This document shows positions 1 to 34,030 of a stretch of DNA of 34,030 nucleotides, piece after piece. Origin of the DNA: Granulicella sp. (GTDB lineage Bacteria > Acidobacteriota > Terriglobia > Terriglobales > Acidobacteriaceae); NCBI GenBank assembly GCA_003133205.1, contig PKWK01000336.1, positions 1-34,030 of the forward strand, given 5' to 3'. Each line of letters begins with the position of its first letter. Position 1 is the first letter of the stretch. The position numbers were made by a program, and so were the translations under genes. The notes under the pieces were generated by a model that saw nothing but the letters and a program-made list of their open reading frames with translations, had not been told where the DNA came from and ran no database searches.

Positions 1-1068
1 AACACCATGGCCATGGCCGGCGAGTTCCTCGGCATCTCGCCCATGCTCCTCACCGGAGTTCCCGCCATGGACGCACACAAGCACGAAGCCTCGCGCAAGG
101 CTGGAGCCATGGTCATGGACCTCGCCCGCGCCGGCCTCACCCCGCGCAAGATCCTCACCCGCCACGCACTCGAGAACGCCATTGCCGCAGTCTGCGCATC
201 CGGCGGCAGCACTAACGCCGTCCTCCACCTCATCGCCATTGCCCGCGAGCTGGAAATCCCGCTCGACATGGCCGACTTCGACCGCATCTCCGAGCACACG
301 CCCTTCATCTGCGACCTCTCCCCCGGCGGCAAGTACGTCGCCAGCGACTACCAGCACGCCGGCGGCTCCCGCGTCCTCGCGCAGCGCCTCATCGAGAAAG
401 GCCTGCTCCACGCCGACGCGCTCACCGTCTCCGGCAAGACGCTAGCCGAAGAGGCCGCACTCGCCGTCGAAACTCCCAATCAGCAAGTCATCCGCCCCTG
501 GTCGAACCCGCTCAAGGCCACCGGCGGCCTCGTCATCATGAAGGGCAACCTCGCCCCCGAAGGCGCCGTCATCAAGGTAGCCGGCCACGAGCGCCTGCAC
601 CACACCGGCACCGCCCGTGTCTTCGAGTCGGAAGACCTCTGCCACGCCGCCGTCGAAGCCGGCAAGATCAACCCCGGCGACGTCTGCGTCATCCGCTACG
701 AAGGCCCACGCGGAGGCCCCGGCATGCGCGAGATGCTCGCCGTAACCGCCGCCATCAAAGGCATCCCAGCCCTCTCCGACACCGTAGCCCTGCTAACCGA
801 CGGCCGCTTCAGCGGAGCCACCCGCGGCCTCATGGCCGGCCACGTCGCCCCCGAGGCCTTCCTCGGAGGCCCCATCGCCGCCGTCCACGAAGGCGACACC
901 ATCACCTTCGACGTCCCCGCGCGCACGCTAACCCTCAACGTCCCCAAAGCCGAGATCGCCGCACGCCTAGCCGCATGGCGCGCGCCCGAGCCGCGCTACA
1001 AACGCGGCGTCTTCGCCAAGTACGCCAACTCCGTCTCCTCCGCCAGCGAAGGAGCCATCACCACCTGA
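1..1068 (+). CDS. ilvD: Dihydroxy-acid dehydratase, C-terminal part (5' truncated)
   Basis: The reading frame is open from base 1, so the gene begins upstream of the window; about 355 codons remain of a family that is usually about 560-620 residues. IlvD is an iron-sulfur dehydratase that converts 2,3-dihydroxy-acids to 2-keto-acids in valine, leucine and isoleucine synthesis. Visible family signatures are the ASGGSTNAVLHL segment, the ICDLSPGGKY segment, the RGGPGMREML segment and the DGRFSGATRG segment, whose serine is the proposed catalytic base in this family. The C-terminal GHVAPEA..GGPIA stretch is also typical. The first cluster cysteines are off the window. Downstream, on the same strand, lie ilvB, ilvN and ilvC, so this heads a branched-chain amino acid cluster, although about 1.7 kb of inserted material separates it from ilvB. 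A poly-C repeat element starts only a few bases after the stop codon. Confidence 0.96.
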   Translation, partial: NTMAMAGEFLGISPMLLTGVPAMDAHKHEASRKAGAMVMDLARAGLTPRKILTRHALENAIAAVCASGGSTNAVLHLIAIARELEIPLDMADFDRISEHTPFICDLSPGGKYVASDYQHAGGSRVLAQRLIEKGLLHADALTVSGKTLAEEAALAVETPNQQVIRPWSNPLKATGGLVIMKGNLAPEGAVIKVAGHERLHHTGTARVFESEDLCHAAVEAGKINPGDVCVIRYEGPRGGPGMREMLAVTAAIKGIPALSDTVALLTDGRFSGATRGLMAGHVAPEAFLGGPIAAVHEGDTITFDVPARTLTLNVPKAEIAARLAAWRAPEPRYKRGVFAKYANSVSSASEGAITT

Positions 1069-1071
1069 CGA

Positions 1072-1198
1072 GGGGGGGTACCCCCCCCCCGCTTTGGGCC
1101 AAAATCTTGAAAGGAAATGACTTAGGTTCTGGCCTCGAAGCTAAGATATTGAAAACAAAGGGTCGTGTGTGTGCAAAATCTTCATTACAAAGGAGATA
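1072..1198 (+). repeat. Poly-C plus tandem AT-rich unit element, copy 1
   Basis: A run of seven G, TA and ten C (1072-1090) is followed by three AT-rich units starting near 1100, 1142 and 1174. Each unit begins CAAAATCTT or a close variant, continues with an A-rich AAACAAAG-like core and ends near GACTTAG or GAGATAG. The same architecture is found at 25690-25812 (minus orientation) and 33966-34030, with a looser copy at 30015-30067. The element lies directly behind the ilvD stop. I see no open reading frame that it would encode and do not recognise a named family. Confidence 0.75.
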
Positions 1199-1252
1199 GC
1201 CTCATCATGGAATGCACTCGCAATTCGACGTCGGGAATCGAGAATCCGAAAA

Positions 1253-21607: not shown

Positions 21608-21902
21608 ACCATCACCTCATTGCCTTTCACACCACTCCATCGCGATCCGTCGGAGAATCACATCCAAGTCCCAGCCAGTTGCCATATGGCCCGGGGATCA
21701 TTCTCGCTGACCAGCGCCCCAAGAACAAGTCCAGACCATCACGAGTATTTCACGACACTCCAATCCCATTCGAAGGAAAGGACGAGCAGCCGTGATCGCT
21801 GGACGCAAATTAGTCTCAAATTATCAGGGGGGCAATACCGAACAGACACCATCAAATCGCCAACTGACCACTGTCAACTGACCACCTACCACTGCATTAA
21901 AA
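21608..21902. other. Intergenic region between fabH and the SRP RNA gene
   Basis: No gene is seen in these 295 bases. At 21861-21894 a short tandem repeat is present, with CAACTGACCAC occurring twice 14 bases apart, followed by CTACCACTG; a related CTGACCACTTACCACTG lies at 20571-20587. The fabH promoter must be here on the minus strand but is not obvious. The 3' end of the SRP RNA lies at its right edge, where TTTT follows the stem on the minus strand. Confidence 0.5.
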
Positions 21903-22000
21903 GTACCGGGCGACCTACTGCGCCCATAATTACCCGTTACCGTTGCTTCCTTCCGGACCTGGCGGGGTTGGCGGGATTACGTCGCGTAGGACCCGGCACT
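21903..22000 (-). ncRNA. ffs: Signal recognition particle RNA, small bacterial (4.5S) type
   Basis: The minus strand carries the universal SRP RNA core: CAGGTCCGGAAGGAAGCA, which forms the GGAA tetraloop hairpin bound by Ffh. The ends pair as expected for the long hairpin: GTGCCGGG near the 5' end with CCCGGTAC at the 3' end, and CCTAC with GTAGG inside. The RNA would be about 98 bases, the length of the compact bacterial form without an Alu domain. TTTT follows the 3' stem. It runs divergently from the MutS-like gene, which starts about 40 bases away. Exact ends are uncertain by a few bases. Confidence 0.95.
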
Positions 22001-22038
22001 ACCTAAGTCTACCATCTAGGAATGGATACTCCCAGTCG

Positions 22039-23877
22039 ATGACCGCGACGGCCCTCGCTCCCATCACCACGGCCGAGGTTCGGGCCCGCTACAAAGAACT
22101 TCGCGACCTCCATCAGCAGCGCCACAATGCCCTCGCAGGCCGCCACAGCGGCGCGCTCAAAGGAATCGCCGCAGCGGTCGCCATCCTCCTTTACACGGTA
22201 TTCCGCGCCCCCCACAGCAGCCTCGCCCCGTGGCTAATCCCCACCGCCATCGCCGCCATCATCGGGCTGATCTGGTATTCGCTCCGCCAGCAGGCGAAGC
22301 TCGCTCGTGAACAGCGCCTGCTGGTCCTCTATGACAGCAACCTCCGCCGCGCCGACGGCACCGAAACCCAATCCGGCCGCACCGGCACCGAACTCGGGCA
22401 GGAGTTGCGCGCTCCCGGCCACATCTACGAGCGCGACCTCGACATCCTCGGACCCAACTCGCTCTTCGGCCTGCTCGCCACCACCCGCACAGGCCCCGGC
22501 GAGCGCGGCCTCGCCCGCTATCTCCTCGACTCCGCCACGTACGAAGAGACACTACTCCGCCAGCAAGCAGTCAAAGAACTCCTGCCGCAAACCGAACTCC
22601 GCGAAAAAATCGCGCTCCTCGGCGCATCCAGCTTCCAGCAGATCACCGCCAGCTTCTTCGATGACTGGCTGGCCGACGCTCCGCCTTCCTTCCATCCCGG
22701 CTTCCGCATCGCCATTCTCATCACGACAATCCTCAACATCGCACTGCTGCTCACCGGCTTCACCCACCTCTTCACCTGGAGCACCATCTTTCCCAACCTT
22801 GCTCTCACACTCTGCGTACAGGCCGCGACATGCCTCGTCCTGCGCTCGCGAGTGATGCCGCTGCTCACTACCAGTGCCCGCCTCCAGCAGAACGTCCGCC
22901 TCATCGCCGACGGCCTCGCCCTCATGCAGACCACCACGTTCGATTCTGCCAAGCTCAACCATCTCCAACGCGCCTCCCTCGAACCCGTCGGCGGCGTCAA
23001 ACTTCTCAAGAGCCTCGAAGGCCACCTCACCCTCGTCGAACAGCGCAACAAGGAGTGGTACTTCGCCCTCTCCCTCTTTCTTGCCGCCGGCACTCAGACC
23101 GCCATCTCCATCGCCGCATGGAAGCGCAAACACAGCGACGCCATGCGCTCCTGGCTCGCGGCCTGGGCCGAGTTCGAAGCACTCAATGCCCTCGCCACCT
23201 ACGCCTTCGAACATCCCACCGGAGACCCCGAAAACACCTGGCCGGAGTTACTCCCTTTCACGCACGCGCCCATGTACGAAGCTCGTCAACTCGGCCACCC
23301 ACTCCTCGCCAACGCAGTCACCAACGACGTCTCGCTCGGACTCGAGGCCCGCTTTTATCTCGTCAGCGGCTCCAACATGTCCGGCAAGTCCACACTGCTC
23401 CGCTCAATCGGCATCAACGCCGTGCTCGCCTATGCCGGAGCGCCCGTGCGAGCCCAATCCCTGCGCATCACCCCTCTCGCCCTCGGTGCCTCCATCGCTC
23501 TCACCGACTCGCTCGCCGAGGGCCGCTCCAAGTTTCTCACCGAGGTCGAGCGTCTCTCCGCCATCCTCAATGCCAGTTCCGCAGCACCTGTGCTCTTTCT
23601 CGTCGACGAGATATTCAGCGGCACCAACTCGGAAGATCGCCGCGCTGCCGCCCGCTCCGTCCTCGAAAAACTCCTCGCCCACGCAGCCATCGGCGCGCTC
23701 TCCACCCACGACCTCGCCCTCACCGACCTTGCAACCCCAACCACCGCCGGACTCAACGTCCACATGGCCAGCCCGGACCCTCAAGACCCCCTCGCATTCG
23801 ACTACAAACTCAAGCCCGGAATCAACACCGCAAGCAGCGCCCACGCCATCCTCCGCCTCATCGGGATCGACACCTGA
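22039..23877 (+). CDS. Membrane-anchored MutS-family ATPase
   Basis: The start at 22039 is chosen because the longer frame would run through the SRP RNA gene. The 612-residue product has two pairs of hydrophobic segments (about residues 35-80 and 215-265) separated by a soluble stretch, then a lever-like region and a MutS ATPase: Walker A GSNMSGKSTLLRS from residue 444, Walker B LFLVDEIFSGTNS with Asp523-Glu524, and the STHD histidine motif. It lacks the mismatch-recognition domain with its Phe-x-Glu motif, so it is not MutS1, and has no Smr domain, so it is not MutS2. Such MutS-related membrane proteins are widespread but uncharacterised. A GATACT hexamer eight bases upstream and no ribosome-binding site suggest leaderless initiation. 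Confidence 0.9.
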   Translation: MTATALAPITTAEVRARYKELRDLHQQRHNALAGRHSGALKGIAAAVAILLYTVFRAPHSSLAPWLIPTAIAAIIGLIWYSLRQQAKLAREQRLLVLYDSNLRRADGTETQSGRTGTELGQELRAPGHIYERDLDILGPNSLFGLLATTRTGPGERGLARYLLDSATYEETLLRQQAVKELLPQTELREKIALLGASSFQQITASFFDDWLADAPPSFHPGFRIAILITTILNIALLLTGFTHLFTWSTIFPNLALTLCVQAATCLVLRSRVMPLLTTSARLQQNVRLIADGLALMQTTTFDSAKLNHLQRASLEPVGGVKLLKSLEGHLTLVEQRNKEWYFALSLFLAAGTQTAISIAAWKRKHSDAMRSWLAAWAEFEALNALATYAFEHPTGDPENTWPELLPFTHAPMYEARQLGHPLLANAVTNDVSLGLEARFYLVSGSNMSGKSTLLRSIGINAVLAYAGAPVRAQSLRITPLALGASIALTDSLAEGRSKFLTEVERLSAILNASSAAPVLFLVDEIFSGTNSEDRRAAARSVLEKLLAHAAIGALSTHDLALTDLATPTTAGLNVHMASPDPQDPLAFDYKLKPGINTASSAHAILRLIGIDT

Positions 23878-23955
23878 CCCGGTTCCCTCTTCAGCGGCCA
23901 ATGGGACGATTTCAAGCAGTTTCCGGTAGTGATCTGTTTGAATACCACGGCGAAG

Positions 23956-23968
23956 GAACTTGCTCAAA
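23956..23968 (+). repeat. GAACTTGCTCAAA 13-base repeat, copy 1
   Basis: The exact 13-mer GAACTTGCTCAAA occurs here, at 24846-24858, and inverted at 25422-25434. It is located in the non-coding gap after the MutS-like gene. Confidence 0.6.
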
Positions 23969-24030
23969 ATCAGACTTCACAGGCAACTGCTACCGAACCA
24001 ATACGACAGTCTTCCACTTGTCCATGTTGT

Positions 24031-24050
24031 GACGCCAAGTCCTTGGCGTC
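24031..24050. terminator. Perfect hairpin between convergent genes
   Basis: GACGCCAAG-TC-CTTGGCGTC is a perfect nine-base stem with a two-base loop. It lies between the MutS-like gene (+) and the small membrane-protein gene (minus) that converge here, so it could end transcription in both directions. It lacks a clear T-run. Confidence 0.5.
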
Positions 24051-24058
24051 TCTCGAAG

Positions 24059-24361
24059 TCACTCCTGGTTCGCTACCTGTTCATTGGATTCTTCTCGGGG
24101 CTTGAAATAGAGCCAGCGCAACAGAATGTATCCCAGCAGAAAAAGCGACGGTGAGGCGACCAAATAAGGCAGGGAATCCCGCAGAAGCAAGCCCGTCGGT
24201 TCGGGGATCAACATCGTGCGAGCCACGCCTCGCATAGACCAAGCTGTAATCGGTGCGGTAAAAATGCTGACGAAGTCGAGGATCGCATACGCAAAGATCC
24301 ACCCCAGAGCCAGCGCTCCCACATAACTCTCCACCAGGCTGTGTTTCAGACGGCTAAACAT
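24059..24361 (-). CDS. Small membrane protein, paralogue of the upstream gene
   Basis: The 100-residue product has three or so hydrophobic segments (VGALALGWIFAYAILDFVSIF near residues 14-34, and LPYLVASPSLFLLGYILLRWLYF near 64-86) and a charged tail. No family is recognised. Its ATG overlaps the stop of the preceding minus-strand gene by eight bases (ATGTTTAG), so translation is coupled. Its segments VESYVG and LLRWLYF align with AESHVS and LSRWIYG of that neighbour, suggesting an old tandem duplication. The pair probably forms a hetero-oligomeric membrane complex, which is inference. Confidence 0.7.
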   Translation of the reverse strand: MFSRLKHSLVESYVGALALGWIFAYAILDFVSIFTAPITAWSMRGVARTMLIPEPTGLLLRDSLPYLVASPSLFLLGYILLRWLYFKPREESNEQVANQE

Positions 24362-24809
24362 GGTTGCTCCTTCTCAGTCTCTTGCAGCTCACGCTCAGGC
24401 TGCGAATTGGCCCCACGCCATATATCCACCGTGAGAGAACCCACGCGGATGTGACAGCGCTCAAGGCAGAAATGAAGTTTCCAGACAATTCCGTCAACTG
24501 CATGCGATCGACCGCATTGAGCGTGCGCGAATAATAGGGAACATCGAGGATCGCAATCGCCGTGAATATGAAGGTGGCTGCACGGGCAATTGGAAGCAGA
24601 AGAGCCAAGAACGCCGAATTGAGGGAATGAAGGAGTAGAGCCGCGATTGCGACGTCGGACACGTGAGACTCGGCAAGCACGGTGCGAAAAGAGGATTTCA
24701 AGGAGATCTCCGGTTCGTTGAAATTGTCGCAGCTTTCTTGCACAGCGAACGATATTTCGATCCGGCTAAGTCGAAAATTCCAAACAAGTCTCGAAATACG
24801 GCGTTTCAT
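24354..24809 (-). CDS. Small membrane protein, partner of the overlapping gene
   Basis: The frame is open up to a TTG at 24857, but the ATG at 24809 gives a more ordinary start and a 151-residue product. Hydrophobic segments lie near residues 53-83 (VAIAALLLHSLNSAFLALLLPI and AATFIFTAIAIL) and 118-136 (ISALSAVTSAWVLSRWIYG). The N-terminal 45 residues are polar with a basic start (MKRRISRL). No family is recognised. The start codon lies inside one of the short direct repeats at 24793-24821, so the repeat may have changed the gene's 5' end. It is divergent from the + strand membrane-protein gene at 24951. Confidence 0.6.
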   Translation of the reverse strand: MKRRISRLVWNFRLSRIEISFAVQESCDNFNEPEISLKSSFRTVLAESHVSDVAIAALLLHSLNSAFLALLLPIARAATFIFTAIAILDVPYYSRTLNAVDRMQLTELSGNFISALSAVTSAWVLSRWIYGVGPIRSLSVSCKRLRRSNHV

Positions 24810-24821
24810 GCAAGTTCGACC
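24793..24821 (+). repeat. 29-base direct repeat, left copy
   Basis: The stretch ending GCAAGTTCGACC matches 25410-25438 at 23 of 29 positions by my count, in the same orientation. Both contain AATACGGCG. The pair brackets the start of the minus-strand membrane pair and the whole + strand membrane-protein gene. Confidence 0.6.
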
Positions 24822-24845
24822 GGGCTGCCGGACGGAGCAGAAAAC

Positions 24846-24858
24846 GAACTTGCTCAAA
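24846..24858 (+). repeat. GAACTTGCTCAAA 13-base repeat, copy 2
   Basis: This is an exact copy of the 13-mer found at 23956-23968 and, inverted, at 25422-25434. It lies between the divergent membrane-protein genes. Confidence 0.6.
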
Positions 24859-24950
24859 TCCGGAACATCACGGGCAGTTCGAGGATTACAAGGTTCGAGC
24901 GACCGGCCCAGTGGTACGCTGAGGTGCAGAATCCTCTCGGAGCATTGAAG

Positions 24951-25382
24951 GTGAATGAGCTAAAGCCAAGTTTGAATAGACTGCGACTTTTTCAGTTCGC
25001 AATGATCGCCGCGATACCAATGTTTGGGTGGGTGGCGGAGATGGCCCGTCATCCCGGCAACAACAGTAGAACCTTATGGCACTGGGTTGTTGCCTTTGTT
25101 GCTCTCTACATCGCTTTCGCGGGGTCAAGGTTTCGCCGTCGAATGCTGGCCCGTGCTGCGACGTCGCTGGCGCAAGACGCTTCCGATCCGAGGGCCCTCA
25201 AGCAGTGGGAGGGAGCGCATATCGTCCCAATGGCGTTTGCCGAGAATATCGCACTGTGGGGCCTGCTTGTCCGCGTGCTTCTTGGTGGTACGTTTTGGGA
25301 AGCATCTTTGTTCTACTCGGTTAGCCTGATTCTGCTGCTGTATTGGACACCCCGGTTGCCGACTGCAACTAGCGTAGGTTGA
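24951..25382 (+). CDS. Small membrane protein, unknown
   Basis: The frame is open from 24663, but that upstream part runs antisense to the divergent membrane gene and looks non-coding. The GTG at 24951 has GGAG eight bases before it and gives a 143-residue protein. Hydrophobic segments lie near residues 12-26 (LFQFAMIAAIPMFGW), 42-56 (WVVAFVALYIAFAG), 95-110 (ENIALWGLLVRVLLGG) and 117-132 (LFYSVSLILLLYW), separated by basic loops such as RFRRRMLARAA. No family is recognised. It stands alone on the + strand, bracketed by short repeats, and may be mobile or horizontally acquired. Confidence 0.65.
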   Translation: MNELKPSLNRLRLFQFAMIAAIPMFGWVAEMARHPGNNSRTLWHWVVAFVALYIAFAGSRFRRRMLARAATSLAQDASDPRALKQWEGAHIVPMAFAENIALWGLLVRVLLGGTFWEASLFYSVSLILLLYWTPRLPTATSVG

Positions 25383-25689
25383 GGACCGCCAAAGTTGCGC
25401 GAACTTCCTTGAATACGGCGATTTGAGCAAGTTCGACCCTTCAAGTCAAACTGACCTACCCAAGTATCCGCCTCTGCGGTGCGCCCTTGACACCAGGGTG
25501 TATAATTGACCTTAGGTTGAGACAGAATCCACTGGCCTGGGCTTGTGTCTCCCCGATGCTCCAAAGAAACCATTGAGCAAGTCTCCTGTAGGTGTAGAGC
25601 GAAACCACGACCGTTATGTCCGTTTTTTCCCAATAAAAACGGTACTGCACGCCCGGTTCACGCTCGCAGTGACAGGAAGCTTGCTCTAA
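25383..25689. other. Repeat-bearing non-coding region before pectinesterase
   Basis: No gene is supported. It holds the right copy of the 29-base direct repeat (25410-25438), the inverted 13-mer at 25422-25434, TTGACA-N8-TATAAT at 25487-25506 (spacing too short for a normal promoter but shared with 29875-29893), and a hairpin CCGTTTTT-N7-AAAAACGG at 25620-25642. The region reads as an accumulation of small repeats. Confidence 0.5.
25410..25438 (+). repeat. 29-base direct repeat, right copy
   Basis: This is the partner of 24793-24821, sharing AATACGGCG and GCAAGTTCGACC. In this copy the centre reads ATTTGA, which creates the inverted copy of the GAACTTGCTCAAA 13-mer at 25422-25434. Confidence 0.6.
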
Positions 25690-25812
25690 GTCCAGCGTTT
25701 AGAATATCTTGCAAATTATCTCCTTTGTTTAGAAGATCTTGCAAAATTGATGTTCGCTAAGTGCTTTGTTTGGAAGATTATGCAGAATTGATATAGGGGG
25801 GAGGGGGGTACG
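25690..25812 (-). repeat. Poly-C plus tandem AT-rich unit element, copy 2
   Basis: Read on the minus strand, TACCCCCCTCCCCCC is followed by units starting at 25782 (CATAATCTTCCAAACAAAG, then ACTTAG), 25741 (CAAGATCTTC..AAACAAAGGAGATAA) and 25711 (CAAGATATTC...). The first two units are exactly 41 bases apart, as in copy 3. The poly-C end abuts the reading frame containing pectinesterase, so on the gene strand it reads as a G-run before an ATG at 25813. Confidence 0.8.
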
Positions 25813-25941
25813 ATGCCGCAACCAATTCCAGACTTGACTCGCCACCGAACTCGCCGCCGCTCCCACGGCCCAACCGGCCAGCGCCATGGCTCGCCAGCCC
25901 TTAAAGGCGAATACTACTGCCAGCATAGTAACCTCATCCCC

Positions 25942-27024
25942 ATGCCTCGCCTCGCCTTTGCCGCCCTGCTCCTGCTGACCGTCCCACTCTACGCCACCGA
26001 CGTCCACGTACGCGTCGACCCCAACGCCCCGCACGCCAATCCCGGCAGCGAGAACCTCACCACCTTCCCCACCATCGTCAACGCGCTCGACCACCACCCC
26101 TTCGCCACGCCCAATCCCGACGGCACACCCGGCCGCGTCTTCATCGAGATCGTCCCCGGCACCTACCACGAGCGCGTCATCGTCACGCAGAATCACAACA
26201 ACATCACCCTCATCGGCCTCGGCAAGTCTCCCAGCGAAGTCGTCATCACCAACTCGCTCAACTCCAAGACCGCCGGCGGCACCTTCTTCACGCAAACCGT
26301 CGAGATCAACGGCACCGGTTTCGAGGCCGACAACATCACCTTCGAGAACACCGCCGGCAACACCGGACAGGCCGTTGCCGTGGCCGACCGCGGCGACCGC
26401 TCCATCTTCAAGCACTGCCGCTTCCTCGGCCATCAGGACACGCTCTTCGCCGACTACGGCCGCCAATACTACGTCGACTCCTACGTCGAAGGCGGCGTCG
26501 ACTACATCTTCGGCAACGCCACCGCCGTCTTCGACCACACCGAACTCCACTCCAACGGCCCCGGCTTCATCACCGCGCAGTCGCGCACCTCGCCCGATCA
26601 AACCACCGGCTACGTCATCCTCAACAGCAAGGTCACCGCCGACCTCAACGCCCCGCCCCTGTCTTCCCCTGAGCCAGACCCCAACGCTCCCGGAGCCCGA
26701 TCCACCGCCTCCGCCCGCCGCATGATCGGCCTCGGCCGCCCCTGGCGCACCTACTCCCGTGTCATCTACATCAACACCTCGCTCCCCGCCGAGTTGAACC
26801 CCGTCGGCTGGAACAACTGGGGCCAGGTCGCCAACGAGTCCACCGCCTACTACGCCGAATCAGGATCGACCGGCCCCGGCGCCTCGCCCTCCACGCGCGT
26901 CCCCTGGTCGCACCAACTCACCCCCGCCGAAGCCAAGCAGTACCTCCCGCAAACGTTCCTCGCCGGCCCCAAATCCGGCCCCGACCACTGGGATCCCATC
27001 GCCGAAGCAGCCAAACTCCCCTGA
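25942..27024 (+). CDS. Secreted pectinesterase (carbohydrate esterase family 8)
   Basis: I start the gene at 25942 because MPRLAFAALLLLTVPLYA is a good signal peptide; the frame also has an ATG at 25813 directly behind the G-run of the repeat element, which would give a 403-residue form with an odd basic N-terminus. The 360-residue product is a right-handed beta-helix pectin methylesterase that removes methyl groups from homogalacturonan. Active-site motifs are complete: GTYHERV, GQAVAV, GHQDTLF with catalytic Asp, DYIFGNATAVF with the second Asp, and GLGRPWR with the arginine. It suits growth on plant debris. No other pectin genes are adjacent. Confidence 0.95.
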   Translation: MPRLAFAALLLLTVPLYATDVHVRVDPNAPHANPGSENLTTFPTIVNALDHHPFATPNPDGTPGRVFIEIVPGTYHERVIVTQNHNNITLIGLGKSPSEVVITNSLNSKTAGGTFFTQTVEINGTGFEADNITFENTAGNTGQAVAVADRGDRSIFKHCRFLGHQDTLFADYGRQYYVDSYVEGGVDYIFGNATAVFDHTELHSNGPGFITAQSRTSPDQTTGYVILNSKVTADLNAPPLSSPEPDPNAPGARSTASARRMIGLGRPWRTYSRVIYINTSLPAELNPVGWNNWGQVANESTAYYAESGSTGPGASPSTRVPWSHQLTPAEAKQYLPQTFLAGPKSGPDHWDPIAEAAKLP

Positions 27025-30014: not shown

Positions 30015-30067
30015 GTAAGCCATTTGTTTTGAGCAAATATTCGGTATATACCGGGGGAGGGGGTACC
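30015..30067 (-). repeat. Poly-C element, copy 4 (divergent)
   Basis: Read on the minus strand, GGTACCCCCTCCCCC and a TATATACC stretch are followed by AATATTTGCTCAAAACAAA and TGGCTTAC, a looser version of the first unit of the other copies. The later units are not recognisable. On the gene strand the G-run ends four bases before the ATG of the ATP-PP-loop gene and supplies a GGAGG-like ribosome-binding site. Confidence 0.6.
30042..30053. promoter_or_regulatory. GntR-type operator-like palindrome, site 2
   Basis: CGGTATATACCG is a perfect 12-base palindrome with the same GGTATATACC core as site 1. It lies 14 bases before the ATG of the ATP-PP-loop gene, partly inside the poly-C element. Confidence 0.5.
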
Positions 30068-30928
30068 ATGCAAATGAAGATGGAAGATACTGCGCCGCAG
30101 CCCGCCCCGAAGCGTATTTTGCTAAGTTGGAGCGGAGGCAAAGATAGCGCTTGGGCGCTCCATCTTCTGCGTCAGCAGCCCCAGTACGAGGTCGTCGCCC
30201 TCCTCACCACCATCAACGAGAAATTCCGCCGCGTCGCCATCCACGGCTTCCGCGAAGAACTCCTCGACCAGCAAGCCGAATCGATCGGATTACCCCTCTG
30301 GAAGGTCGACCTGCCCTTCCCCTGCTCGAACGCCGACTACGAATCGCGCATGGCCCAAGTCTGCGCCCGCGCCGTCGCCGAGGGCCTCCACGGCATCGCC
30401 TTCGGCGACCTCTTCCTCGAGGACATCCGCGCCTATCGCATCGAGAAACTCGCCGGCACCGGCCTCGAACCCATCTTCCCCGTCTGGACGCCCGACCTCG
30501 GCATCTCTACCGCAGACCTCGCCCGCCAGATGATCGCCGCAGGCCTCCGCGCGCATCTCACCTGCATTGACCCGCGCCACCTCAGCCCGTCCTTTGCCGG
30601 CCGCACCTTCGACGCCCAACTCCTCGCCGACCTGCCCGCCGGCGTCGATCCCTGCGGCGAACGAGGCGAGTTCCACACCTTCGCCTTCGCCGGCCCAATC
30701 TTCTCGCGTACCGTTTCCGTACTTCCCGCCGAGACCGTGGAGCGCGACAATTTCATCTATGCCGATCTCCTCCCCACCCTTGGATCTGAACCGCCCAGAC
30801 CGACCCCACCCGAAGCATCGCATCCCCAGGCTGCGGCTCTGGATGCAAGCCTGCCTGCTGCTCGTAGCGGCCTCCACCGCCTCCGCCCAGATGATGGCCA
30901 AACCGGGCCATATCGGATCGGGCCTTAG
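30068..30928 (+). CDS. ATP-PP-loop (DUF71) protein, diphthine-ammonia-ligase-like
   Basis: The 286-residue product has a PP-loop ATP-binding motif SGGKDS (residues 22-27) in LLSWSGGKDSAWALHLL. Family features follow: RRVAIHGFREELLDQQAESIGLPL, GIAFGDLFLEDIRAYR, and DPCGERGEFHTFAFAGP. These belong to the DUF71/Dph6 group of adenylating amidoligases; bacteria lack diphthamide, so the bacterial substrate is unknown. The start at 30068 follows GGGGGAGGGGG, a strong ribosome-binding site supplied by a repeat element; the longer frame from 29957 runs through operators and repeats. The last 45 or so residues after FIYADLLP look like an extension caused by a missing stop, and overlap the next gene by 170 bases in another frame. 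Two GTATATAC palindromes upstream suggest repression by a GntR-type regulator. Confidence 0.85.
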   Translation: MQMKMEDTAPQPAPKRILLSWSGGKDSAWALHLLRQQPQYEVVALLTTINEKFRRVAIHGFREELLDQQAESIGLPLWKVDLPFPCSNADYESRMAQVCARAVAEGLHGIAFGDLFLEDIRAYRIEKLAGTGLEPIFPVWTPDLGISTADLARQMIAAGLRAHLTCIDPRHLSPSFAGRTFDAQLLADLPAGVDPCGERGEFHTFAFAGPIFSRTVSVLPAETVERDNFIYADLLPTLGSEPPRPTPPEASHPQAAALDASLPAARSGLHRLRPDDGQTGPYRIGP

Positions 30929-32744: not shown

Positions 32745-33280
32745 TAGTCTGAAGTCCTCTTCGATGCTCTGGGCCGAGCGCCGTGCGAGTTGGGGTCCAG
32801 ACCGTATGCGCTGGCGGACGTGGACTCATCCGCGCGCAGTTCCCCATCGATGGCGGACAGCAGCTCATTGTCTGCCTTGATGGTTGCTGGGGAGACTTGC
32901 GGAGCTGCTGGCTGCGAGTGCACGATTGCGACTTGAGGTTGCGCGGGTTGCTGATGGCTGTTGCGGACGGAGACGCCGATGCCTGCTGCGAGTGCGATGG
33001 CGAGGGATGCGGCCGTCCATGCGCGTGGGCGGTGCAGCCACTCGAAGACCGGCCGGCGCTGGGGCGCAAGGACGGGTTGGGAGGCTGCGCGGCGCTCTGC
33101 CCAGAGGCGAGTCTGCTGCTCGAAGCTGCCGATGGCTCCGGACACGCGCTCCGCCTCCTCGGCGCATTTCGGGCATGCTTTCAGGTGGGCCTGAACGGAG
33201 GAGGGATTCGCCCCGAGCAACAGGTCGGCGAACTGCTCGTCGGTGAGATGGGTTGGTTGGGCTTCGAGATAGTGTTCCAT
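32744..33280 (-). CDS. Anti-sigma factor with zinc-finger (ZAS) motif
   Basis: The start at 33280 (MEHYLEAQPTHLTDEQ) overlaps the sigma factor stop by one base (TGATG), which decides it over a longer frame. The 178-residue product carries HLKACPKC in its N-terminal domain, the H-x3-C-x2-C zinc anti-sigma signature (about residues 32-40). A single membrane helix follows (TAASLAIALAAGIGVSV, about residues 88-105), then a periplasmic tail of about 75 residues. It should hold the ECF sigma factor at the membrane until an envelope signal arrives. Confidence 0.9.
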   Translation of the reverse strand: MEHYLEAQPTHLTDEQFADLLLGANPSSVQAHLKACPKCAEEAERVSGAIGSFEQQTRLWAERRAASQPVLAPQRRPVFEWLHRPRAWTAASLAIALAAGIGVSVRNSHQQPAQPQVAIVHSQPAAPQVSPATIKADNELLSAIDGELRADESTSASAYGLDPNSHGARPRASKRTSD

Positions 33281-33861
33281 CAGATTCTTCCTCCCAGCTT
33301 CAGCCTGACCGCTTTGACTGCGCGGTGGAGATGGGTCTTTACCGTGCTGATCTGCATTCCGGTGGCTTCGCATATCTCCTGCAACTCCATCTCTTCGATG
33401 AAGCGTAGCAGAAAGATGGTGCGTTGATTGACTGACAATGATTCGAGCGCGGCCGATACCTGCTGCGCTCTCTCCCGGGCCAGGATTTGCGACTCGGGCG
33501 AACTTTCGGAGCTTGGCAAGAGCGACGACATCTCACTCAGGTCCGGCCTAGTTTTCTGGACCGTGCGCCAGAACTGAAACTTGCGCGATCGCTGATGATC
33601 CCGCACCAGGTTGGTCGCGATATGGGCGAGCCAGGTGTAGACAGCGCAGTCGCCGCGGAAAGAATCCCTGGCGTTGTAAGCCTTCAGCAGGCAGTCCTGG
33701 ACAATGGTCTCGGCGAGGTCCTGATCTCCGGTGGAGTAGGCGACGAACCGCAGCAGGCGCGATCGATAGACACGATCCAGCGCCTCGATGTCGTTCAGCT
33801 CGGTAAGGGTGGGCGCACCCGTCACGCAGCAGATCATATCGGGATCGAGAGCAAGCTGCAT
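33280..33861 (-). CDS. ECF-subfamily RNA polymerase sigma factor
   Basis: The 193-residue product has a sigma-2 region (DRVYRSRLLRFVAYSTGDQDLAETIVQDCLLKAYNARDSF...VYTWLAHIATNLVRD, about residues 30-90) that binds core polymerase and the -10 element. It also has a sigma-4 region (ALESLSVNQRTIFLLRFIEEMELQEICEATGMQISTVKTHLHRAVKAVR, about 138-187) with a helix-turn-helix for the -35 element. It is the first gene of a three-gene, one-base-overlapping operon with its anti-sigma factor and a CpxP-like protein. No ribosome-binding site is clear; TACAGT lies five bases before the ATG. A poly-C repeat element sits about 105 bases upstream. Confidence 0.93.
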   Translation of the reverse strand: MQLALDPDMICCVTGAPTLTELNDIEALDRVYRSRLLRFVAYSTGDQDLAETIVQDCLLKAYNARDSFRGDCAVYTWLAHIATNLVRDHQRSRKFQFWRTVQKTRPDLSEMSSLLPSSESSPESQILARERAQQVSAALESLSVNQRTIFLLRFIEEMELQEICEATGMQISTVKTHLHRAVKAVRLKLGGRI

Positions 33862-33965: not shown

Positions 33966-34030
33966 GCCCCCCCGGTATCGATTGGTGCATAATCTTCCAA
34001 ACAAACCACTTACCGGCTATTGAATTTGCA
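33966..34030 (+). repeat. Poly-C plus tandem AT-rich unit element, copy 3 (cut by window end)
   Basis: GCCCCCCCGGTATCG is followed by a unit at 33988, CATAATCTTCCAAACAAA then CCACTTACC, nearly identical to the first unit of copy 2. Exactly 41 bases later (34029) the next unit begins with CA before the window ends. It lies upstream of the ECF sigma operon with its poly-C end towards that gene. Confidence 0.75.

Follow-up and report, generated by a model that had tools for sequence, protein, structure and literature searches.

A clade-specific, dispersed intergenic element with helically spaced units and a skew-following direction in Acidobacteriota

The window analysed here, a whole stretch of 34,030 nucleotides, carries at three places (sites A, B and C) an element made of a pyrimidine run, 7-12 bases and then a unit of the form YNCAAAGTCTTC-N9-GNNTTAGGTCTGGAC, with further units in about half of the copies known from related genomes. 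Units were scored with a weight matrix derived from 61 copies in one of these genomes, G031. Site A lies behind ilvD (assigned by Pfam; stop codon at 1066-1068). A C-run search located a G7-TA-C10 stretch on the + strand at 1072..1090, its C-run beginning 12 bases past that stop codon. On the same strand follow unit 1 (1098..1126, 31.1 bits), a degenerate unit 2 (GCTAAGATATTGAAAACAAAGGG, 1140..1168), which was found by anchor search and falls below the 4-bit matrix cut-off, and unit 3 (1172..1200, 24.1 bits). Site B is read on the - strand. Its pyrimidine run (25796..25812), which is GGGGGGAGGGGGGTACG on the + strand, abuts the ATG at 25813 of a pectinesterase gene (25813-27024, + strand, Pfam), and its units 1, 2 and 3 lie at 25756..25784 (15.8 bits), 25715..25743 (8.8 bits) and 25685..25713 (6.4 bits). 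Site C starts with a run of seven C on the + strand (33967..33973, C-run search). The run is 105 bases upstream of where a divergent gene of the sigma-70 family (33280-33861, - strand, regions 2 and 4 by Pfam) begins, and is followed by unit 1 at 33986..34014 on the + strand (7.0 bits). With unit starts as defined here, the gap between the end of the C-run and unit 1 is 7, 11 and 12 bases in sites A, B and C, respectively.

Scoring the window at a threshold of at least 4 bits yielded six unit matches, found only in 1098-1200, 25685-25784 and 33986-34014, while the reversed window used as control yielded none. With up to 3 mismatches, TGCAAAATCTTCNAAACAAAG matched the window four times, always within sites A, B or C, against a mean of 0.00 in 100 shuffles. 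C-runs alone are ordinary in this DNA (6 CCCCCCC matches against 12.8 expected); it is the C-run together with the units that is unusual. The initial annotation had proposed four copies. Sites A, B and C stand, and the fourth, at 30015-30067, was rejected, since it holds no unit reaching 4 bits with the G031 matrix and its G-rich stretch before a start codon has a counterpart in the nearest of the genomes compared (G010, 91% identical by ilvD). That segment is GGGGGAGGGGGTACC ahead of an in-frame ATG at 30068, and the equivalent position of G010 reads GGGGGAGGGGGCCATG, again without a unit. The G-rich stretch itself (GGGGGAGGGGGTACCATG, 30053..30070, + strand) precedes a gene with a Diphthami_syn_2 domain. 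The regions of G010 matching sites A and B differ from the window, so that they offer no orthologous copy for comparison there. A segment of about 3.9 kb including site B (22017-25918), from the SRP RNA region to the pectinesterase gene, has no counterpart in G010.

The units within a site are regularly spaced. Unit starts fall at 1098, 1140 and 1172 in site A (steps of 42 and 32, unit 3 being 74 bases from unit 1) and, on the - strand, at 25784, 25743 and 25713 in site B (steps of 41 and 30). The proposed succession of a 41-42-base and a 30-32-base step thus holds in both sites. In site C, the TGCA of a likely next unit lies at 34027, 41 bases on and at the window end, which agrees with the proposed first step; a third unit would fall past the end of the window.

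To assess the distribution of the element, 396 sampled Acidobacteriota genomes were scanned for CAAAGTMTTC-N9-GNNTTAGGTCNGGAC with up to 2 mismatches, the backward pattern serving as control. The initial annotation had named the finding of no further copies as a result that would count against a dispersed element. The pattern was present in 17 of the 396 genomes, and the control in none of them. The unit is present in a Granulicella MAG (L001) and in the genus group assigned to that genome, where 16 of the 21 sampled genomes matched; among the remaining 375 genomes only one did (G186). Counts reached 84 matches in G031, and G012 had 29. The element is therefore a clade-specific dispersed family. 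Looser patterns, applied to 6 genomes that had matched earlier or were the starting genome and to 12 picked by ilvD likeness, matched in 18/18, with 0 to 8 control matches per genome, so that only a large excess is meaningful: G031 shows one, with 96 against 5, and 7 against 3 in G010 is weak. In 400 kb of G031, the matrix found 16 matches of at least 12 bits, some of them at sites in its training set, against none in the reversed control. An exact scan of genome contigs returned three stretches, one in Granulicella and the others, possibly by chance, in Gastranaerophilales and Nitrosopumilus contigs (L002, L003). A plasmid collection compared with site B gave seven records, with weak matches in Priestia, Bacteroides and Parabacteroides. 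Viral contigs gave no match to one strict pattern, a result of little weight since this pattern would be rare even in carriers. Among the titles and abstract openings surveyed, none was found to describe such an element in Acidobacteria.

Alignment of the 61 G031 copies showed that CAAAGTCTTCA, an A at position 17, TTAGGT and GGAC are near-fixed. The run preceding the unit is less constant, as in G012 a T-rich run replaces the C-run in 8/9 sites (T-rich loci include L075, L156, L167, L173 and L182) and the ninth (L177) has no run. At four places in G012, pairs of units lie 166-211 bases apart. At three pairs of adjacent positions there is a preference for AA or TT, irrespective of which of the two. 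Among G031 copies with A or T at both positions, AA or TT is found at -5/-4 in 49/55, at 13/14 in 49/56 and at 18/19 in 36/42, compared with 733 of 1222 A/T pairs in the flanks. In 70 copies from other genomes the corresponding counts are 48/58, 42/61 and 24/33, with 820/1330 in the flanks; outside G031 the rule is thus clear at -5/-4 and weak at 13/14 and 18/19. The -5/-4 state seems independent of that at 13/14 (15, 10, 8 and 7 for the four combinations), and the states at 13/14 and 18/19 tend to match (19 versus 7), an agreement that could stem from shared ancestry. This AA/TT preference is a rule at the level of the duplex.

The initial annotation had offered two readings of the regular phasing: protein binding to a single face of the DNA, or a structured RNA. 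Over positions -30..44 of the 61 G031 copies, no distant pair of Watson-Crick columns stands out by covariation, and the strongest mutual information links neighbouring columns. An RNA hairpin within the unit (AAGTC with GACTT) was rejected because a G at position 23 faces the near-fixed G at position 6 in 26 of the 61 copies. Rfam searches of 13 element loci gave eight matches up to E=5, all under the gathering score. In the window, Rfam recognised only two RNAs, both outside the element sites: Acido-Lenti-1 RNA (2020-2064, - strand) and bacterial small SRP RNA (21901-21998, - strand). The structured RNA thus found no support. The absence of pairing, taken together with the helical spacing described below and the AA/TT preference, favours a protein on one DNA face, a reading that gains computational support from this preference and from spacings in whole helical turns outside the window.

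We measured the distance from the first to each later unit in 62 G031 sites, 31 of which hold two or more units of at least 8 bits and gave 35 distances, and in 70 sites of other genomes (28 distances). Later units lie mostly near 42, 53, 72, 83 and 94 bases from the first. Random spacing, also named in the initial annotation as a result that would speak against the element, is not what was found: R is highest at a period of 10.5 bp, both for the G031 spacings (R=0.66, p about 2e-7, n=35) and for those of the other genomes (29, 41-42, 53, 71-72, 83-84 and 93-95 bases; R=0.84, p about 3e-9, n=28). These p values are too small, because subfamilies of copies share ancestry and the spacings are not independent; when each of the 19 distinct G031 spacings is counted once, R drops to 0.46. 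Spacings of 44-52, 54-63, 77-81 and 85-92 bases are missing from both sets, and G031 has a few off-turn values (68, 69, 70 and 76). Periods of 13-14 bp also score high in the other genomes (R 0.65-0.70, compared with 0.32-0.36 in G031), because few values dominate there. Within these limits, unit spacing follows multiples of about 10.5 bp, and the steps in the window (42 and 32; 41 and 30; 41) agree with it. Phasing cannot matter at the 31 of 62 G031 sites that have a single unit of at least 8 bits.

Analysis of the gene environment, with genes called by our own hexamer-based caller, gave clues about the kind of gap that the element occupies. Among 61 G031 sites with two neighbouring genes, 23 are convergent, 28 tandem (21 and 7 in the two orientations) and 10 divergent, compared with 38 convergent, 127 tandem (83 and 44) and 45 divergent among 210 background gaps, taken from the skewed stretches of one 400-kb block. 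The sites thus favour gaps between convergent genes, often right after a stop codon. At 30 G031 sites, the C-run side holds a gene with its end facing the element; in 14 of these the run begins 2-8 bases past the stop, and in 23 it lies at most 40 bases past it (in two sites the unit was counted, as no run was detected). A terminator-like hairpin with a T-run, recognised by a simple rule and oriented like the element, follows the units at 24/62 sites, against 30/300 random windows, most of them coding DNA; for hairpins oriented the other way the numbers are 3/62 and 9/300. The unit itself is not an intrinsic terminator.

These observations raise the possibility that the element works at the RNA level, as a terminator or 3' UTR signal of G-rich transcripts: the C-run, on an otherwise C-poor RNA, would act as an entry site for Rho or break an RNA-DNA hybrid while the hairpins end transcription. 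The position of the run just past stop codons and the hairpins in the same direction are what this signal would produce, and in 400 kb of G031, five of the seven C-runs on the G-rich strand of gaps belong to the element. We nevertheless regard it as quite unlikely. It leaves the helical spacing and the AA/TT rule unexplained, and gene starts rather than ends lie on the C-run side at 32/62 G031 sites; the run, moreover, is T-rich in eight of the nine G012 sites and missing from the ninth. Read the opposite way, the element could be a 5' leader or promoter whose G-run before an ATG serves as a ribosome-binding stretch. The G-run does abut the ATG at 25813 in site B, lies close to a likely ATG by eye in some relatives (L001, L014, L030), and is accompanied by a promoter-like block in some G031 copies (see below). 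A start codon is found 0-8 bases from the run, by our own caller, in only 2 of the 32 G031 sites with a gene start on that side, and the 23 of 61 sites between convergent genes have no downstream start, which leaves this leader or promoter very improbable.

The direction of the element is related to base composition rather than to genes. Read along the element, the locus skew (GC skew) is positive at 60/62 G031 sites; two of the 60 loci hold one element each way. It is positive in 58/62 left flanks and in 61/61 right flanks, whichever strand the right gene is on (17/17 and 44/44), so that gene strand was rejected as what sets the skew near the elements. When three 400-kb blocks of G031 (1.2 Mb) were segmented by skew state independently of the elements, 33 of 39 sites, many of them also among the 62, ran with the local skew, none against it and 6 lay in near-zero stretches. 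In the 70 sites of other genomes, which include a few neighbouring or orthologous ones, the mean skew of the two flanks is positive in 66, that of the left flank alone in 64 and that of the right alone in 63. Element direction is thus nearly always locked to local GC skew, irrespective of gene strand, with exceptions: counting against the lock, site A of the window and 4/70 sites of other genomes fail. Site A opposes the rule (-0.24 and -0.08), site B agrees on one flank (0.33 left, -0.03 right) and site C agrees weakly, on the left flank only (0.05). The + strand of the window is C-rich over most of its first 32 kb irrespective of gene strand, has a skew near zero at 24-26 kb and is slightly G-rich from about 32 kb. 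This skew-following direction, the frequent position of the C-run just past a stop codon and the T-rich run of G012 go beyond the initial annotation.

Local skew is very strong (about 0.3) on contig C5 of G031, in the blocks at 900-1300, 1560-1960 and 3860-4260 kb (L183-L202, L252-L291). At third codon positions it reaches 0.77 in genes of either strand, and its sign flips every few to about 80 kb, with near-zero stretches between. Within a skew stretch, sites lie nearer to its start than expected by chance (mean relative position 0.35, n=26, KS p=0.03). At three places, chosen for close and opposite elements, the skew changes between the elements, from C-rich to G-rich, and they point away from the turn. 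At one of these turns (C5 1029.8-1030.6 kb, L189, about 1.031 Mb), matches to the relatives G046 and G050 change in order and direction from one side of the gap with an element to the other, a break of synteny such as an inversion would leave, in a single case judged from match coordinates. The element as the cause of the skew is unsupported, since skewed stretches (mean |skew| 0.13) also occur in G055 and G013, which have no match in the phylum scan and no 18-bit unit in the 80 and 60 kb sampled.

Several observations bear on the history of the copies. Four related genomes (G015, G062, G032 and G025) share one location of the element, following the same gene and including its run, unit and terminator-like hairpin; a second conserved place is common to G003 and G048, and a third to G015 and G062. 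Within G031 there are two kinds of copies that share more than the unit. One is about 110 bases long, and its 12 copies, picked by eye and lined up, showed no clear ends or target duplications by eye. The other, longer kind has a block in 32 copies; of the 30 copies with both this block and GGGGGCTTGACA, 27 have the block 73-75 bases ahead of GGGGGCTTGACA. In about half of the G031 copies (e.g., L139, L097, L118) the succession is TTGGGGTAAATACCCCAACTATTTTT and then GGGGGCTTGACA, which may correspond to a terminator followed by part of a promoter. In the direction of the element, the GGGGTAAATACCCC block of the long kind is a hairpin with T's after it, and in the opposite direction it is promoter-like. 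Because the two kinds share more than the unit, copying within the genome probably occurred, and the copies were then kept.

The main rival to a protein-binding site is a non-autonomous mobile repeat with strand-preferring insertion at replication forks, as in the IS200/IS605 elements, now decaying or domesticated, the direction of which would record the lagging-template strand at insertion. The dozens of copies, the two kinds (12 copies of about 110 bases and 32 long ones), the lock to skew, the adjoining hairpins and stop codons and the correlated AA/TT states at 13/14 and 18/19 can all be read in this way. Neutral copies would not be expected to keep helical-turn spacing or to switch between AA and TT, however, and the orthologous copies stay in place. 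We also searched for Y1_Tnp, the sole protein family searched, with RAYT subtypes pooled in the count. It was found in 12/13 genomes, including 5/5 without a match in the phylum scan, and was not found in the element-rich G012; it therefore does not track the element. No clean ends or target duplications were noticed by eye in the 12 copies. We consider a strand-biased mobile repeat possible and rather unlikely.

We favour instead a polar DNA array bound by protein, to which we give a probability of about 0.5. A putative sequence-specific protein would bind each unit of 29-40 bp. Where two or three units are present, their whole-turn spacing would place the bound copies on one face of the helix. 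The array would be polar, with the pyrimidine run first and the units next, and would follow the G-rich strand of the local segment, not the genes. Protein binding and its purpose are what we infer from these computed regularities, and any function is put forward with more reserve. Our best guess is that the array serves as a polar boundary where genes end. Together with the pyrimidine run before it, the bound array might stop or mark traffic along the G-rich (leading-type) strand, for instance RNA polymerase that leaves a gene or transcribes antisense, and the terminator-like hairpins behind the array might take part in some copies. A boundary at gene ends makes less sense for the 10 of 61 divergent sites, and at 38 of 62 sites the simple rule finds no hairpin. 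A more tentative idea, and a doubtful one, is that the arrays are strand tags, in which the protein-binding array labels one strand as the G-rich (leading-type) one. If so, they would belong to a polar chromosome-organising system, with a direction that survives inversions and could record them.

Comparison with known systems shows likenesses and differences in each case. It resembles REP, BIME and REPIN repeats in having dozens of intergenic copies per genome and arrays of units, and REP repeats favour 3' ends and convergent gaps, as the present element does. Its consensus (61 copies) is non-palindromic and without the GTAG/CGTC tag given for REP sequences in the title of PMC3733652, and its units are direct and spaced in helical turns. 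Membership in this group was rejected on the palindrome and tag and on a cognate RAYT (Y1_Tnp). Phased iterons and DNA-bending arrays have repeats spaced in whole helical turns. The present element differs from these in being dispersed over the chromosome, strand-locked and made of one to three units. KOPS is an 8-base motif, GGGNAGGG, oriented by replication-type GC skew. The direction of the element follows skew as well, but its G-run, which can read GGGGAGGG, lies on the C-rich strand and thus has the opposite polarity, and the element has longer, phased units and a T-rich variant. A KOPS-type motif, GGGNAGGG on the G-rich strand, was rejected on this ground. The human mitochondrial CSB II is a single site without a unit array, unlike the element, which has unit arrays and, in G012, mostly a T-rich run. 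The complementary strand of the element has a G6AG6-type run, a likeness to CSB II that is a resemblance only. An excerpt of PMC5027508 links the G-tract of CSB II to transcription termination. The near-fixed sequence of about 30 bases in the element is a handle with which to fish out a candidate protein, and the element makes the GC-skew patchwork of these chromosomes testable. The best-known intergenic repeats of bacteria are palindromic and indifferent to strand; a non-palindromic repeat in helical register, with a direction given by strand composition, points to a novel DNA-binding system in this common group of soil bacteria.
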